Origin: a virus
DNA length: 62,111 nt
IMG/VR virus record: IMGVR_UViG_3300010885_003224
Span: 1-62,111 of that record
Reading direction: 5' to 3' (one strand)
In this document: one piece after another, positions 29,062-35,698 of the stretch
How the letters are laid out: each line of letters opens with the position of its first letter
Numbering within the stretch: the first letter of the stretch is position 1
Position numbers and translations under genes: made by a program
The notes under the pieces: generated by a model
Database searches by the model: none
Told to the model about the DNA's origin: nothing
The model's input: the letters and a program-made list of their open reading frames with translations, nothing else

Positions 29062-30589
29062 TCAGGTCTTTGTAGAGATCAATAAGTTTGGTGTGTACAT
29101 CAATCTTCTGGTCCAGAAGATAATACACCCGCGACTCTACGGGGGAACCGACCAACTGTATGATGGTGCATTTGTTCACTTGGCCGGAACGGTGGATACG
29201 CGCATTGGCTTGCGCGTAAGTTTCGAGTGATGAGGTAGGGCCCCACCAAATAATGGTATCGGCAGCGGTCAGCGTGACGCCATGTGCTGCGGCTTGCGGC
29301 TGGATCACCAGTACACGGGGGCTCTTGGTAGTTTGGAACCTGTTGATGATATCCGTGCGTTTGGAAGCAGACACGCTGCCTTGGATCACCTCGGTATCGA
29401 TACCGTCTTTGTGCAGCTTCTCTGTGATTACTTCGATGGCGTGTTTGAATGGTACGAAGACAAGAACTTTGTTGCTTGTTTCGTCGATTACTTCCTTGAG
29501 GACATTGTAGCGGTTTGAAATGTCAAAGCGCACCGCCTCTCCATCTTCGTCATACACTGCACCTGCAGAAATCTGGAGCAGCTTGCTCATCGCAACTGCA
29601 GCATTCACCGCTGTCACGCGGGTTGCAGCCAACTCCATAGCCAAGTTCTTTTTGAGGAGGTTATAGTAGTGCTTCTGTTGTGGGGTGAGTTCGACTTTGC
29701 GCTTGATGTACGACAGGTCGGGGAGGTCGAGGCATTGGGACTTTAAGAACCTGATGGCAGGTTGCAGTATCCGATAGACTGTGTCCGTAGCCGTCTCCTT
29801 GGGTTCCCAGCGATACTGCGAGACGCGCTGCATTATGGTATCTTTGAATACGTTAAAATTGCGTGGCACGGATGTGTAGTCTAACAACTTAGCTAGCCCA
29901 TAGGCGTCCACAGGGCTCTGTGCGGCAGGAGTGCCTGTCATAAGCCATAGCCACGTGTCGGGGCCTACCAGCTTGTTCAGGGCCTTCCACCGCTTGCTCT
30001 GGGCATTCTTGTAGTGCGTGGCTTCATCGACGATGATCAGGTCGAAACCGCCGTTGGCGATATCTTCTTTGACTATCTCAATACCATCATAGTTTATAAC
30101 TACGAACTCAGTATTTTGTGCAAGCAAAGCACGGCGCTTCTTGGCATCCCCATGAGCAACAGCAATGCTGCGGTGCATCGCAACGCTAAAGAGATCGTCC
30201 CGCCATGCACTATCCATAATAGAAAGCGGGCATACGATCAGCACTCGGTGCACCTTCCCCTGCTTCATAAGAAAGTCAGCGGCCCAGATGGCGCTTGCCG
30301 TCTTGCCTGTGCCCTGCTCGTTGAAACAGAATGCCCGTTTGTTGAGGGTCAGGAAGCTTGCTGTGGTGCGCTGATGGTCCATCGGTTTGTATTTTCCGGG
30401 CCAGTCATAGCGTCCCTCTATGGGGGACGGCACTTTTATGTTCATGTTCCGCAATGCGAACACTTCGTCTACACCCCACTTAACCAGCACTTCATGCTGG
30501 CTTATCATGCGGCTATTTGGGATAATTGTAGTGACTTGTTTTGGATTGCGTAGCTTTAGCAGCAACGCCTTACCGTCGATGATCTTCAT
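29054..30589 (-). CDS. SNF2-family DEAD/DEAH-like helicase
   Basis: A 511-residue superfamily 2 ATPase. Walker A is NEQGTGKTA (93-98), motif II is IIVDEAT (188-191), motif III is WLMTGTPAAQS, and motif VI lies in ANARIHRSGQ in the C-terminal lobe, typical of SNF2/RapA-type translocases. It probably remodels DNA or displaces proteins at forks or recombination joints. It starts with TGGAGAATCTG upstream of ATG and lies between a small HNH-like gene and the promoter at 29033. Confidence 0.93.
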   Translation of the reverse strand: MKIIDGKALLLKLRNPKQVTTIIPNSRMISQHEVLVKWGVDEVFALRNMNIKVPSPIEGRYDWPGKYKPMDHQRTTASFLTLNKRAFCFNEQGTGKTASAIWAADFLMKQGKVHRVLIVCPLSIMDSAWRDDLFSVAMHRSIAVAHGDAKKRRALLAQNTEFVVINYDGIEIVKEDIANGGFDLIIVDEATHYKNAQSKRWKALNKLVGPDTWLWLMTGTPAAQSPVDAYGLAKLLDYTSVPRNFNVFKDTIMQRVSQYRWEPKETATDTVYRILQPAIRFLKSQCLDLPDLSYIKRKVELTPQQKHYYNLLKKNLAMELAATRVTAVNAAVAMSKLLQISAGAVYDEDGEAVRFDISNRYNVLKEVIDETSNKVLVFVPFKHAIEVITEKLHKDGIDTEVIQGSVSASKRTDIINRFQTTKSPRVLVIQPQAAAHGVTLTAADTIIWWGPTSSLETYAQANARIHRSGQVNKCTIIQLVGSPVESRVYYLLDQKIDVHTKLIDLYKDLID

Positions 30590-30614
30590 CAGATTCTCCA
30601 GATAGTTTTATTTT

Positions 30615-30869
30615 TTATTTCTTTTCGCCGGGTTTGTGCCCGTTACGACTGCGGTTCTTTGACGGCGCTTCAAGAACATAACCGTCCTTGTTGCTGCCGC
30701 CTTTGGCGAGAGCCTTCTTGTGGCTCACATCTTTACCCGTGCGGTCCACGCCCTTGGCATCCAAAGCCCGCCGTGCCCGCTGACGTTCCATACGATCTGG
30801 CAACTCTCCCCGTGCCTTTTGCATCTGGTATTCGTGGCCATAAGGACGAGGGGACTTTGTATAGGGCAT
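30615..30869 (-). CDS. Small HNH-like basic protein
   Basis: An 84-residue protein from MPYTKS at 30869, with AAGGAA before ATG; an upstream ATG at 30923 would overlap the nuclease gene. It is basic and contains GKDVSHKKALAKGGSNKDGY, resembling the HNH phrase (D/S)HxxPLxxGGxN with the first His-Asp reduced to SH. Similar small phage proteins are listed as HNH-like. Activity is doubtful because the usual Asp before His is replaced by Ser. Confidence 0.65.
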   Translation of the reverse strand: MPYTKSPRPYGHEYQMQKARGELPDRMERQRARRALDAKGVDRTGKDVSHKKALAKGGSNKDGYVLEAPSKNRSRNGHKPGEKK

Positions 30870-30871
30870 GG

Positions 30872-31543
30872 CTAGTTCCTTCCGTTGTGCGGGCATTCTA
30901 GCACAGCACAGTGCTGCCGACAAAGCCCAGATGTCTTAGCATTCCAAACATTAGCATCGAATGCTTTCTTCATGCTATTGTACTTGCCAAGCCATTTGCT
31001 CCAAAGGGCGGGCTTATCGTCGGTTTTGTACGACTCCATTACAGAGGCATTAGCCACGACAAACAAGAGCGCTGCACGAACCTTTGTGATGTTGGGGAAG
31101 TGCGCGAATACCGCTAGAGACATCAACTCAAGCTGCCCCTTATCGGCGTACTTGGCGCTCTTTCCCGTCTTGTAGTCTATCACGTAAGCACTGCCCTCCT
31201 CATGGTTCAGGATCAGCAAGTCAGCAATACCGCGAAACCATACGTTCTCGGCGTTGAAGCTGCACGGCTCCAAGTCTTCGGTAAGGCCAAGTTTATGCTC
31301 GCAAAGTTTTTCGCCTTCCTTGGCATTCAGTATTTCAAGCAATGACTGAATGTACCCAAACTTCTCGGGAACAGGTATCGCGTTCCCAATGTAATCCTCA
31401 CACGCCTTGTGGAACGCCGTGCCATACGTCATGGCTTCGGTTTCCTGCACGGGATACTGCCTGAGTACCTTCTCGTGGTAGAATTGCTTCGGGCACTGCT
31501 CGAATGCTTTCAGCTTACTGAACGACCAAGGGGCTACACTCAC
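30872..31543 (-). CDS. RecB/Cas4-like PD-(D/E)XK nuclease
   Basis: About 223 residues. The GTG at 31543 is well spaced from GGAG; a TTG at 31552 is also open. Nuclease motifs are visible: YGTAFHKACEDY (RecB-type His), FRGIADLLIL (Asp) and YVIDYKTGKSAK (the D-x-K). One Cys near the N-terminus (FEQCPKQF) and three near the C-terminus (GLCRQHCAVLECP) form the four-Cys iron-sulfur pattern of Cas4/AddB nucleases. It likely processes DNA ends in replication or recombination. Confidence 0.87.
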   Translation of the reverse strand: MSVAPWSFSKLKAFEQCPKQFYHEKVLRQYPVQETEAMTYGTAFHKACEDYIGNAIPVPEKFGYIQSLLEILNAKEGEKLCEHKLGLTEDLEPCSFNAENVWFRGIADLLILNHEEGSAYVIDYKTGKSAKYADKGQLELMSLAVFAHFPNITKVRAALLFVVANASVMESYKTDDKPALWSKWLGKYNSMKKAFDANVWNAKTSGLCRQHCAVLECPHNGRN

Positions 31544-34200
31544 TACACGCAATCTCCATAATTTTTACCCACACCTGCCTCGCAGTTAACAGGCAAACCC
31601 GCAGCCCACTCTGGAACCCAACGCATCGATTGTTCGACCCATGCCTTAGCGCAGGCCACCTCATCGTCGGGAACACAGCAGACAATAGAGTCATGCACAG
31701 TTAGTACGGCGCGGTATTTCTTAGCAATACGTAGCATCTGTTCACCAATGATGCAACGAGCAATAGCTTGGCAGACGTTTTCTATCACCTTGCCGCCGTA
31801 GATGCGGTTCGGACCTTTGCGAGTTTGGTAAGTATATTCAGTGCCATCGGCATTTTGATGCCCACGAAGCCCATCGTAGCGGAGGGTCAGGCCAGACGGA
31901 AGGATAACTCCGGGGGCATCAGGGTCTACGCTGAGAACTCCCTCCTGCCCAAACTCCCGCACATCGCCGTTAGCCAAGTCGCGGAGCATATACCCTGCGT
32001 CTTTCCATAGCTTGGTGATCTTGTCGTTCTCTTCGCGGTAGATGGTGATGATGCGTTTGGCTTCTTCCAAGGTTACTTCCACCCCCTGCGTCAATAGTGC
32101 AGCTTGGAACTTAGCTCCGCCCATGCCGTAGCCACAATTATGTACAATAATTGGTCCGACACTTGTCGCAACTGTGTATCTGTTCCTCGGCCCTGCGAAG
32201 GCGATATCGTAAGTCATCAAGTTCTGTTTGCAGTGCTCCAACCTTACGTTTGTTCCTTGCATTTTCTGACTTTGTTGCAAACCGTAGGTTATTAGGTTCA
32301 TACCCCTTGCTATTGTCGATACGGTCGAGGTCACGCCCAGCTTCATCCCAACCATCAAGAGTGATAAGGTATTTAAGGAATGCTGCGCGATCCTTACGCC
32401 ATGCTTCATGCACGAAAATACCCCTCCCCCCGTAGTGTGGGTAAGTTTTACAGCTTGGGGTGTGGCACCGTGCGATACATGAGGATATACGGTTGAGTAA
32501 CCGTTCCCTGTGCCCATCATCTGGTAGTATTGACTGATACTTAAGCCACCGTTTACGGTGACTAGCGCGTTTGGCACAGACATTGCACCGAGTAGTACGT
32601 CCAGCCTTGACGTTAGCGCGGTCAACCATACCTTCCCAACCGCAAGAACATTTAACAATGGGGTGCCAACCAGACCCTTGTTTTGGTTCCCACCGCAAGA
32701 CTTTGAGTTCGCCAAACATAGTGCCGACTTCAAAAGGGAAGGGTTTGTAATTACCCCGGACCACGCCTGCCACCCATGTTCCGTCAGGATTTCGTGGTCC
32801 GCTGTCGCAGCGACCCCCATATACCGTATCGTCTCCTTCATACCCTGCGGTACTACGCCCCCGTGTGCCACCCATTCTACCCCATCCCATACCATATCCG
32901 TGTCTGTAACTTGGACTATGGGGCACCAGCCACGTTTAGTCAACACTTTAGTATCTGCCGCAAAACATCCCAGAATAGTTGTCTTACCGACGAACCGTTG
33001 GTCCTTGGTAACGTCAGCCTCATCGATGCCATAGATTTTTGCGGCCATCTTCTTATATACATCTTTGCCCTGCGCGAAGTCTTCAACAAGGTCGCTCTGC
33101 TCGGCCAGCCATGCCAGCACCCGTGCTTCGATTTGCGAGGAGTCGGATTCGATTATTGTCATCCCCTCTGGGGCAATGATAGCCCGCTTGAGCACCTTGG
33201 CGTTAGGCCCACGGCTCGGTAGGTTCTGGAGGTTGATCTTATCGTCACCGCCCCAGCGACCTGTATGGGCAGCATAGTACCGCACAGGGACGGGCATAGC
33301 GCCGCGCTTGGAGATATCGATGAAGCGTTGGGTGCGTGTCTCTTCCAGCGTGGACTTAGTGCCTAGCCGTGCAGCTACCACAGCCTGTACGCGGAAGTCT
33401 TCGTGTTCGGCCAGCGCCTTAAACTCTTCGTCGTTCTTAGCCATGGCGTAGGTAAGTTTGCCTGTTGTCGGGCTGATCTTCATGGGAACCTCTGCGCCAT
33501 ACGACCGCAAGATAGCGGCCAGCTTGGCGTTGCTCATCAAGTCTTCCTTGGTCACGCCAGAGGCGGTGAGAAGGTCTTCCTTCATCAGCTTGGTTTTCTG
33601 TAGGTGCATCTCCAACAGGTCGCCGTCCAACTCCAAGATAGGGTGGATGAACATACGCAGTGTGTGGTCGATCAGCTTAAGTTCCTGTTTGGGGAACTTC
33701 TTAAGCATTTGATTGAAGATCGTGTAGGTGAGTTCTACATCGTTGCGGCAGTATTCGCCGTACCGTTCCAACTCAAGTATAGTGAAGTCCACTAGATGTT
33801 TGCCTAGTGCATTGATAACTTCATTACCCTTCTCACCAACCTCGTACTTCTCAGCCAAGGCTTTCAGGCTGGCAGACTTTTCTACACCGTGGATAGCCCG
33901 TGCCATGCACAGGGTATCGAACCATACCTTCGGCTTCACGCCGTAGCGCCACGACAGGATAGCGCCATCGAACATAGTGTTGTGGCATAGGATAGCTGCG
34001 TCAGACCAGTCGATACGCGAGAGCGTATGCGCTACGCGCTTCTCCCCTGCCAGCCAGTATGTGGGCCCATCGTTTTTCTTGATGCCCAACCCGATAGTCT
34101 CGAACAGCGGGCTACGCACATACTCTTCCGTGGTGATCTTCGACAAGGAAAACTCCCTGTCGTAATAGGTCTCCATGTCCACTGTATAAATGTCCATCAT
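31543..34200 (-). CDS. Family A DNA polymerase interrupted by an intein
   Basis: An 885-residue precursor. The exonuclease domain has DMETYYD (Asp8, Glu10), CHNTMFD and YCRNDVELTY. Polymerase motif A is IIESDSSQIEARV. Motif B (KTTILG-CGYGMGG) is split by a 277-residue intein (residues 412-688). After splicing the mature enzyme would be 608 residues. Motif C is LTVHDSIVCCVPDD, with Ser where HDE is usual. The start ATG overlaps the stop of an HNH gene (ATGA). Downstream are a nuclease and helicase, so this is the replicative polymerase. Confidence 0.95.
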   Translation of the reverse strand: MMDIYTVDMETYYDREFSLSKITTEEYVRSPLFETIGLGIKKNDGPTYWLAGEKRVAHTLSRIDWSDAAILCHNTMFDGAILSWRYGVKPKVWFDTLCMARAIHGVEKSASLKALAEKYEVGEKGNEVINALGKHLVDFTILELERYGEYCRNDVELTYTIFNQMLKKFPKQELKLIDHTLRMFIHPILELDGDLLEMHLQKTKLMKEDLLTASGVTKEDLMSNAKLAAILRSYGAEVPMKISPTTGKLTYAMAKNDEEFKALAEHEDFRVQAVVAARLGTKSTLEETRTQRFIDISKRGAMPVPVRYYAAHTGRWGGDDKINLQNLPSRGPNAKVLKRAIIAPEGMTIIESDSSQIEARVLAWLAEQSDLVEDFAQGKDVYKKMAAKIYGIDEADVTKDQRFVGKTTILGCFAADTKVLTKRGWCPIVQVTDTDMVWDGVEWVAHGGVVPQGMKETIRYMGVAATADHEILTEHGWQAWSGVITNPSLLKSALCLANSKSCGGNQNKGLVGTPLLNVLAVGKVWLTALTSRLDVLLGAMSVPNALVTVNGGLSISQYYQMMGTGNGYSTVYPHVSHGATPQAVKLTHTTGGGVFSCMKHGVRIAQHSLNTLSLLMVGMKLGVTSTVSTIARGMNLITYGLQQSQKMQGTNVRLEHCKQNLMTYDIAFAGPRNRYTVATSVGPIIVHNCGYGMGGAKFQAALLTQGVEVTLEEAKRIITIYREENDKITKLWKDAGYMLRDLANGDVREFGQEGVLSVDPDAPGVILPSGLTLRYDGLRGHQNADGTEYTYQTRKGPNRIYGGKVIENVCQAIARCIIGEQMLRIAKKYRAVLTVHDSIVCCVPDDEVACAKAWVEQSMRWVPEWAAGLPVNCEAGVGKNYGDCV
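32137..32967 (-). other. Intein in polymerase motif B
   Basis: Cys1 begins CFAADTKVLTKRGW (block A). Block B is GVAATADHEILT with Thr55 and His58. Block F is MTYDIAFAGPRNRYTV, and block G is VHN followed by Cys+1 of the host protein, so all splicing residues are present (Cys1, His58, His276, Asn277, Cys+1). Removing it restores ILGCGYGMG. The first 80 residues and last 30 look like splicing domain. The middle 160 look like low-meaning overprinted sequence because an HNH gene occupies another frame there. Confidence 0.93.
32138..32719 (-). CDS. HNH homing endonuclease nested out of frame inside the intein
   Basis: The frame is open from 32926 to a TAA at 32138; I place the likely start at the ATG at 32719 (MFGELKVLRW), giving 193 residues. 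It has a zinc ribbon (CSCGWEG, RCNVCAKR), then SSCIARCHTPSCKTYPHYGG and DRIDNSKGYEPNNLRFAT, the classic active region of phage HNH homing enzymes, and a coiled-coil tail. It is shifted one frame relative to the intein, which stays open throughout. Its stop overlaps the last intein codon. No clear ribosome site is seen, so the start is uncertain. Confidence 0.87.
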   Translation of the reverse strand: MFGELKVLRWEPKQGSGWHPIVKCSCGWEGMVDRANVKAGRTTRCNVCAKRASHRKRWLKYQSILPDDGHRERLLNRISSCIARCHTPSCKTYPHYGGRGIFVHEAWRKDRAAFLKYLITLDGWDEAGRDLDRIDNSKGYEPNNLRFATKSENARNKRKVGALQTELDDLRYRLRRAEEQIHSCDKCRTNYCT

Positions 34201-34700
34201 ATGTCCTTATATGTTTCCCTACGTACTACTAAACTTATTGCCCGTTGGCTGACACCGTAGCGGCTAGCTAGATCAACTTGCCGTACTCCTCCAGCATCGT
34301 ATTCACTACGGATAGCCAGAATATCCTCGGGGGTAAGTTTTGCGTTTACGTGTTGGCTTTGCGGTTGTTGCTTACGGCCTTTCTTGTAGGCGTCTAGCAG
34401 GTTCGTTCTCATAGAACCCAGAAACAGATGCTTAGGGTTACAGCACAGGCGGTTATCGCAAGTGTGAAGTACAAACCGTTTATACCGTTTGGCTTTTCCC
34501 TCCATACGGAATCCGGTTTCTAGTGAAATGCCGCCGTTGGTTAAACTGTAAGCTACACGGTGCGCTTGTACGTGTAAGCCATGCCAAGACAAGTTACCGT
34601 ACCCAGAACTTGTAGTAGCGCCTTGCCATTCCCAACATAGGTCAGGAGCGCCCCGATTAACGGAGCGCCAAAAGTTTTCAGGTGTGTTTTTGTTGCTCAT
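34197..34700 (-). CDS. HNH homing endonuclease upstream of the polymerase
   Basis: A 167-residue HNH_3-type enzyme with CWEWQGATTSSGYGNL, AHRVAYSLTNG, VLHTCDNRLCCNPKHLFLGS and NLLDAYKKGR, the hallmark of freestanding phage homing endonucleases. A C-terminal helix-turn-helix (RQVDLASRYGVSQRAISLVV) gives specificity. Its stop overlaps the polymerase ATG (ATGA), and a second HNH sits in the polymerase intein, so both probably target the polymerase region. Confidence 0.92.
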   Translation of the reverse strand: MSNKNTPENFWRSVNRGAPDLCWEWQGATTSSGYGNLSWHGLHVQAHRVAYSLTNGGISLETGFRMEGKAKRYKRFVLHTCDNRLCCNPKHLFLGSMRTNLLDAYKKGRKQQPQSQHVNAKLTPEDILAIRSEYDAGGVRQVDLASRYGVSQRAISLVVRRETYKDI

Positions 34701-34739
34701 ACGAAACCATAGTATGTCTACATAGCTATAGTCAAGTTT

Positions 34740-35150
34740 TTATTTTAGGCGGTTGTCGTTTAGCTTTCCGTTCTTCTCGGCGTCCAACAGGATGTTGCAG
34801 CAAGCCATGATATGAGCAAGATGGGGTAGCCCACTCTCTGGATCGATAGTATCTCCATTAAACCATGCCATTAGGTGTCGCAGGGCTGCATCATAGTAAA
34901 CAGTAGCGGACACCTGATGTTCACGCCAATTAAACCGCCCGTACTTAGCAGCCCCGTTAGTATGCACCTGCCCCATGAGTTGGATACCGACAGTCGGCGT
35001 GTCACTCAGTTTCGGCTTTGCCTCGCCAAAGGCCGTCTTCGGATTGCCGTCAGGATACGCGCTTGCAATAGAAATCGTCTCATCTTCCCACTCGTCTTGT
35101 GCGGTTTTAGCTAACCCACCCATAACCATCGTCTCACTCCACTTCGCCAT
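34740..35150 (-). CDS. DUF5664-like (dATP/dGTP diphosphohydrolase N-terminal type) protein
   Basis: A 136-residue protein from MAKWSE at 35150 with GGAAG before the ATG; an upstream ATG at 35186 lies deeper in the endonuclease VII gene. It contains GAAKYGRFNWREHQVSATVY and AALRHLMAWFNGDTIDPESG followed by HLAHIMACCNILLD. That is the pattern of DUF5664, listed as the N-terminal domain of phage dATP/dGTP diphosphohydrolases. It may adjust nucleotide pools. No PurZ-like gene was found, so there is no sign of a 2-aminoadenine genome. Confidence 0.82.
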   Translation of the reverse strand: MAKWSETMVMGGLAKTAQDEWEDETISIASAYPDGNPKTAFGEAKPKLSDTPTVGIQLMGQVHTNGAAKYGRFNWREHQVSATVYYDAALRHLMAWFNGDTIDPESGLPHLAHIMACCNILLDAEKNGKLNDNRLK

Positions 35151-35559
35151 CTTCCAACCTTCTTTGGTTAAACTCTTCCAGTGCATCAGCGGCTCGGCGC
35201 ATCAGGTCTGGATCATCTCGGAAACCCCCCAGCCCGCGGTTGCAATGCGTGCATAGGATGAATCGTATTTTCTTTGTTTTGTGGCAGTGGTCTAAGTGCC
35301 ACCCTCTAGGAGTTCCCGGATTATCGCCCCTGCAAATAGCACAAACGTGACCTTGGCTGTCAAACATTTTTTCCCATTGTTTTTTAGTGATTCCAATACC
35401 TTTAGCGCGTCTTCGAAAATTTAATTTCTCACGTGCTTCAGGGTCTGCTGATACGGCTTTGCGCCGTACACGACTCTTTTCATTGATGATTTCTCTATTC
35501 TTGGCGGCGTAGCGCCTAGATGCCTCTTTCCATTGCTGTTTTTTTCTCTCGTCAGTCAC
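35134..35559 (-). CDS. Endonuclease VII-type Holliday junction resolvase
   Basis: A 141-residue protein. The zinc and active site region reads HVCAICRGDN, GWHLDHCHKT and ILCTHCNRGLG: Cys73/Cys76 and Cys103/Cys106 bind zinc, and Asp90-His91-x-His93 with Asn107 form the HNH-like centre of T4 gp49. It cuts branched DNA before packaging. The start is GTG and overlaps the preceding small gene. The basic N-terminal 60 residues are extended compared with the minimal domain. Confidence 0.93.
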   Translation of the reverse strand: MTDERKKQQWKEASRRYAAKNREIINEKSRVRRKAVSADPEAREKLNFRRRAKGIGITKKQWEKMFDSQGHVCAICRGDNPGTPRGWHLDHCHKTKKIRFILCTHCNRGLGGFRDDPDLMRRAADALEEFNQRRLEDGEVE

Positions 35560-35698
35560 TGGGGGGAGGTGGTGAGGGGCGATTGGGGAAATAGGCCGTA
35601 GCGCAGTCAGATTTCGACCAATACAAAATTACACCGTTGCCGCTGTTAGATTGTTTCACGCCCCTCATGGGCGTTTTAGCAGGGAAGATTTTTTGCAT
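35552..35698 (-). CDS. Small ORF before endonuclease VII
   Basis: A 48-residue ORF with an ATG at 35698 and a Pro-rich C-terminus. It contains GNGVILYWSKSDCATAYFP. It would fill the otherwise empty gap and its stop overlaps the GTG start of the endonuclease VII gene, a coupling arrangement used across this operon. Function unknown. Confidence 0.5.
   Translation of the reverse strand: MQKIFPAKTPMRGVKQSNSGNGVILYWSKSDCATAYFPNRPSPPPPSD

Follow-up and report, generated by a model that had tools for sequence, protein, structure and literature searches.

Organisation of the polA locus

The window analysed here, a 62,111-base IMG/VR virus record, contains a polA-family DNA polymerase gene that is interrupted by an intein, within which an HNH endonuclease is encoded in a second reading frame of the same strand (Table 1). 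All of these features lie where they were originally predicted to be, although that prediction had left unsaid that the strand is the minus strand. The polymerase matches the Pfam families PF00476 (DNA_pol_A; 1e-31) and PF01612 (exonuclease; 8e-7), and a single 885-codon open reading frame confirms the claim that its frame continues through all 277 codons of the intein with the splicing residues retained. The point of insertion is polymerase motif B, FVGKTTILG / CGYGMGG (the slash marks the junction here and below). Intein-less homologues exist, the insertion site being empty in K1G and KPP25. Two further endonuclease genes are located upstream of polA.

The intein is of class-1 type: it starts with Cys1, contains TADH and TYDIAFAGPRNRYTV, and ends with His276-Asn277 before Cys+1; it thus has the first residue, the block B TxxH, the block F and the terminal HN followed by C, S or T that characterise inteins. 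Across 57 aligned inteins C1, T55, H58, D254, H276 and N277 are invariant, and the +1 residue is either C or S. The structure predicted by AlphaFold2, when supplied with 57 relatives, consists of two ordered halves of a HINT domain flanking a disordered insert; the best Foldseek matches of this model are all mini-inteins (DnaB, gp41-1 and RecA), and in a profile comparison the intein matches that of Mtu RecA (E 4e-5). Judging from these motifs and the modelled fold, the intein is predicted to be splicing-competent. The HINT domain is split by about 150 residues that correspond to a complete HNH gene read in its -1 shadow frame.

The overlap between the two frames is larger than the roughly 190 codons first estimated, since all 262 codons of the HNH frame are inside the intein. 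Its TAA had been placed in the intein's final codon; the stop does use the first two bases of the Asn277 codon, but also takes the last base of the His276 codon. The remaining frame across the intein contains many stops. The HNH protein has a cysteine-rich ribbon (C93, C95, C114 and C117) along with CHTPSCKTYPHYGG and DRIDNSKGYEPNNLRFAT, and the ribbon cysteines and core residues are unchanged across 56 sequences. It matches PHROG 374 (HNH endonuclease; E 7e-33), with no match in Pfam or NCBIfam. The AlphaFold2 model of the protein is well ordered (86.6), its C-terminal helix partly overprinting block F of the intein. Neither a closely related solved structure nor a significant match of the model in the PDB was found, and its catalytic activity is therefore inferred from the motifs.

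Table 1. Features of the polA locus and their positions in the window.
Feature	Position	Strand	Basis or remark
polA-family DNA polymerase (3'-5' exonuclease and DNA_pol_A)	31543..34200	-	open throughout, 885 codons, interrupted by the intein
Intein, 277 aa (polA residues 412-688)	32137..32967	-	85 further register +2 inteins align with it
HINT splicing domain, N-terminal half (residues 1-89)	32701..32967	-	AlphaFold2 pLDDT 97-98
Linker, intein residues 91-241: out-of-frame reading of the HNH gene	32245..32697	-	pLDDT <50, 0 stops
HINT domain, C-terminal half (residues 247-277), block F and HN	32137..32229	-	pLDDT 97
HNH open reading frame, 262 codons	32138..32926	-	frame +2 relative to the intein
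Nested HNH gene if begun at ATG 32875-32873 (245 aa)	32138..32875	-	frame open from 32926
Alternative HNH starts	ATG 32890-32888; GTG 32773-32771 (211 aa)	-	
HNH core: Cys-rich ribbon, YGGRGI and DRIDN..N	32258..32728	-	alignment; pLDDT about 90
HNH C-terminal tail (end of helix 178-207 and last residues) over intein block F	32138..32240	-	predicted model
Free-standing zf-His_Me/HNH_3 endonuclease, adjoining polA upstream	34197..34700	-	
Endonuclease VII-like gene, farther upstream of polA	35134..35559	-	

Distribution among relatives

IMG/VR and GTDB genomes were scanned, followed by a profile survey in which sequences of <95% identity were counted as distinct. Retrieval was of the best 80 matches per scan, was seeded with the family in which the HNH is in register +2, as in the window, and yielded 181 locus rows. 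At least 99 distinct inteins were present in the profile survey, comprising 86 with an HNH in register +2, 11 with one in register +1 and 2 without an HNH. A scan with a gut-bacterial register +1 HNH identified at least 60 loci with complete inteins in register +1, all of them open. At least 41 of these are distinct, and they represent a second family, beyond the 86 register +2 inteins, L009 and the APSE phages. In total, about 130 distinct inteins in phage and prophage polA genes have an out-of-frame HNH, in one of two registers; the architecture is consequently not rare, contrary to the possibility first raised.

The register is fixed within each family: it is +2 in 86/86 distinct HNH-bearing loci of the window's family, an endonuclease in frame with the HINT domain being seen in 0/86, and +1 in the second. 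Two kinds of relative that might have overturned the out-of-frame assignment were sought, but among the 181 locus rows (best 80 matches per scan) there was no intein with an in-frame HNH, and neither register family contained a single intein-frame stop. Queries from the two frames match the same loci. The full intein (100% of its length) can be aligned with sequences of Salmonella Jerseyvirus phages, EBPR siphovirus 2, Pseudomonas MR14 and Vibrio 97.13, in all of which the HNH also aligns in the other frame; carriers already in GenBank include Salmonella Jerseyvirus, Pseudomonas, Vibrio and APSE phages.

A third type is found in the aphid-symbiont phage APSE-1 (NC_000935), where the register is +1 and the insertion is at another polymerase site, YGGK(S) / CENI. 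Second polA inteins at (Y)GGKx / CENI, with an HNH of another subfamily in register +1, were observed in L061 (5175-6098), L156 (5333-6250) and L184, and in L061 and L156 they share the polA gene with a register +2 intein. Some inteins with the same HNH family as the window are found a few codons upstream, at GKT / CILGLGYG rather than GKTTILG / CGYG (L024, L049, L057, L058, L061, L083-L085, L087, L088, L090, L114, L160, L167 and L171). On the HNH tree the insertion-site label switches about 10 times, a pattern that a sliding target would give. Two members of the family, L075 (2388-3479) and L076, are 364-residue inteins in which additional sequence precedes the HNH core and the intein frame is still open.

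Selection on the two frames

When the codons of the window's HNH core are permuted, 4.0 intein-frame stops are expected and 0/400 permutations are free of stops, which excludes the chance openness of the intein frame. The original interpretation, an out-of-frame HNH inside an intein, is supported. The same pattern extends across the family: in counts drawn from related sequences, between most pairs of which synonymous sites are near saturation, and whose nominal p-values overstate because the relatives are not independent, 0 intein-frame stops occur in the 13,819 HNH-core codons of the 86 register +2 inteins, against 228 expected from permuting synonymous codons within each gene and 974 in the third frame. 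HNH codons that would introduce a stop into the intein frame are wholly avoided: Leu, Val and Ile codons of the HNH that end in A are used at 0/1362 positions before A or G, compared with 242/942 before C or T. In register +1, where 425 intein-frame stops are expected and 0 observed, NNT codons are found at 0/824 positions before AA, AG or GA and at 1619/3035 elsewhere.

The median dN/dS of 29 close pairs is 0.14 for the HNH and 0.16 for intein codons 1-60, but reaches 1.39 when the overlap is translated in the intein frame. The proposed selection on both frames is thus asymmetric: the HNH and HINT domains are under purifying selection, but in the intein reading of the overlap only stops are excluded. 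Divergence at fourfold sites is similar in the HNH (0.645) and the extein (0.617), and no amino acid selection was detected on the linker. Synonymous constraint imposed by the linker was accordingly rejected. Given the dN/dS of the overlap and this extein-like rate at fourfold sites, the intein reading of these bases is selected for openness and for little else. Constraint on the HNH and the N-terminal domain, alongside an unconstrained and predicted disordered overlap, indicates that the intein frame here serves as a passive linker, maintained free of stops, and that the HNH is a nested gene. This agrees with the artificial linker envisaged by the original prediction.

Proposed translation of the endonuclease

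An HNH-frame ATG is present upstream of the core, or at its edge, in every register +2 locus. Its position within the intein is nt 92 or nt 98 in 77/86 loci, whereas 31.8 +- 4.1 are expected from the codon usage of these genes. The ATG at nt 98 requires the Val before Cys34 to be encoded by GTA, which is used in 33/33 cases against a background of 17%. The two positions have undergone only a few changes on the HNH tree, giving few independent changes for a phylogenetic pair test. Of the register +1 inteins, 33/41 have an ATG at nt 145 (19.2 expected), preceded by a GAGGT-type sequence, and the Shine-Dalgarno energy is -8.95, compared with -6.19 on resampling. The equivalent value for the window's family is -7.7, against -7.05 for WDGEEW encoded by random synonymous codons; selection for a Shine-Dalgarno sequence is not claimed here, as the signal is mostly explained by the WDGEEW amino acids. 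An NTG at nt 194, derived from W66, was also discarded as a conserved start, since it follows from the conserved Trp and is CTG in L010.

The best explanation for the synthesis of the HNH is internal initiation, and in the window the likely start is ATG 32875-32873, the more upstream of the two positions shared by the 77 loci, which overlaps the Glu-Trp codons of the intein; the start position differs between lineages, a point against regarding any one as proven. The principal alternative is that ribosomes reach the HNH by programmed frameshifting from the polymerase and intein frame. Register +2 corresponds to a -1 shift, and both the variable start codons and the weak Shine-Dalgarno excess in the window's family are compatible with such a mechanism. 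However, strict X_XXY_YYZ heptamers are found in only 23/86 loci and are of many types, the register +1 family would require the opposite shift, and neither the enrichment of HNH-frame ATGs well above expectation in both registers nor the Shine-Dalgarno energies in register +1 would be anticipated. Frameshifting is thus an unlikely route.

Mobility and decay

Recent movement of whole elements is implied by pairs of near-identical copies within diverged polymerases. Between L055 and L060 fourfold divergence is 0.06 in the HNH but 0.57 in the exteins, and between L043 and L060 the values are 0.08 and 0.54.

Single HNH-frame stops, with the intein frame still open, are found in L005, L222, L224, L230 and the second intein of L156. 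In L157 (659-1081) about 430 nt of the HNH core have been deleted with both frames kept, such that the ends of the HNH are still recognisable. The HNH is therefore dispensable, and its decay, as read from these loci, appears to do the intein no harm. They might also be taken to mean that the HNH frame is generally a dead remnant or by-product and that only the intein matters. This is very improbable, because the HNH has a dN/dS of 0.14 and invariant ribbon and core residues, its ATG is conserved, and complete elements have recently been transferred. Natural mini-inteins were seen in L157 and in L240, where the intein is 168 aa.

Two other explanations can be given almost no weight. Sequencing or assembly frameshifts, which would make an ordinary in-frame HNH intein look overprinted through two compensating indels, could produce such a picture in one contig, but are refuted by the recurrence of the same register across unrelated assemblies and the genomes of isolates (86 distinct inteins; phages Ent2, MR14 and Vibrio 97.13 are among the isolates), by the codon-level avoidance of intein stops and by the lack of an in-frame form among the best 80 matches per scan. 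A self-splicing intron with an HNH gene, of the sort typical of phage group I introns, and an incidentally open intein frame is just as implausible, given that positions 30500-35600 have 0 Rfam matches at E<=1, that the insert has a HINT fold and conserved intein termini with a dN/dS of 0.16, and that the intein frame is never broken.

Very probably, then, the window contains a mobile intein with a homing endonuclease encoded by an overprinted gene of its own rather than forming an intein domain. Under this model, the polA mRNA would be read through to give a precursor, from which the intein, including the linker, would be spliced out of polymerase motif B. Some ribosomes would instead begin inside the intein, at the HNH-frame ATG, and release a free enzyme; this would cut intein-less polA at motif B, with repair then copying the intein into the break. 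Splicing, HNH expression and cleavage are all predicted here from sequence. Subsequent decay could occur through stops in the HNH frame only, or through deletion of the core in frame for both, and the remaining mini-intein would persist.

Relationship to known systems

Full-length inteins consist of a HINT splicing domain with an in-frame HNH or LAGLIDADG domain. The window's element resembles them in having its endonuclease between block B and block F and a conserved polymerase motif as its site, but differs in that the endonuclease is outside the intein polypeptide, in another frame, and requires its own translation start. Intein homing endonucleases are taken to be in-frame domains, with expression tied to the host protein. 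With the enzyme and the splicing element as separate translation products of the same bases, their dosage, timing and decay could be uncoupled.

'Fractured genes', said to have been described by Dassa and co-workers in 2009, reportedly contain split inteins with a free-standing endonuclease between the halves. The likeness is that an endonuclease at the intein's HEN site is a separate gene product; however, in 'fractured genes' both the intein and its host gene are broken into separate pieces, while the window's intein frame is continuous through the endonuclease gene.

In APSE-1 an HNH CDS, P46, is annotated inside polA, P45, in another frame and within an intein, as in the window, although the register and insertion site differ; no text interpreting the P45/P46 arrangement was found. 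The only comparable system detected in open-access full texts was the ShiLan domain of mycobacteriophage DNA methylases, in which an out-of-frame HNH is located in a phage methylase (Arsenault, Gosselin, Gogarten 2025, PMC11855218). ShiLan shares with the window an insert in a phage gene that is open in the host frame and hides an HNH in another, a homing-like distribution and a TAA near the end of the insert. It is, by contrast, without a splicing domain and is thought to remain in the protein (PMC11855218), whereas the window's insert, at a polymerase motif, has in its host frame a HINT domain with a complete set of splicing residues, and two registers are used overall.

No description of an out-of-frame HNH within an intein was found in these texts, and papers on the Guernseyvirinae mention inteins without the hidden HNH. 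The second half of the original suggestion of a 'rare or undescribed' arrangement accordingly survives: the mobile intein with an overprinted HNH is apparently not described. On balance, these elements seem to form an undescribed but widespread class of phage polymerase inteins that are mobile and have an independently translated, overprinted homing endonuclease. The class would have arisen more than once and could lead to split inteins whose endonucleases are free-standing. Multiple origin is suggested by the two registers and the several insertion sites. Such inteins provide many natural examples of overlapping genes with one frame under selection for almost nothing but the absence of stops, and reveal endonuclease genes in widely sequenced phages, such as Salmonella Jerseyvirus, that are annotated only as an intein-containing polymerase.

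Once the endonuclease has a gene of its own, the host gene could be fractured by stops arising in the intein frame, which suggests a testable course by which contiguous inteins might become split. A split polA intein was observed at a second site, GRFGG / C, in L005 (3641-4660), L017 (from 1966) and L072 (from 2644), in an arrangement resembling that of 'fractured genes' and suggesting that overprinted inteins could give rise to split ones. In these loci the IntN reading frame ends in a stop, an HNH gene in another frame bridges the gap, and IntC and the rest of polA follow in the third, such that all three frames are used.
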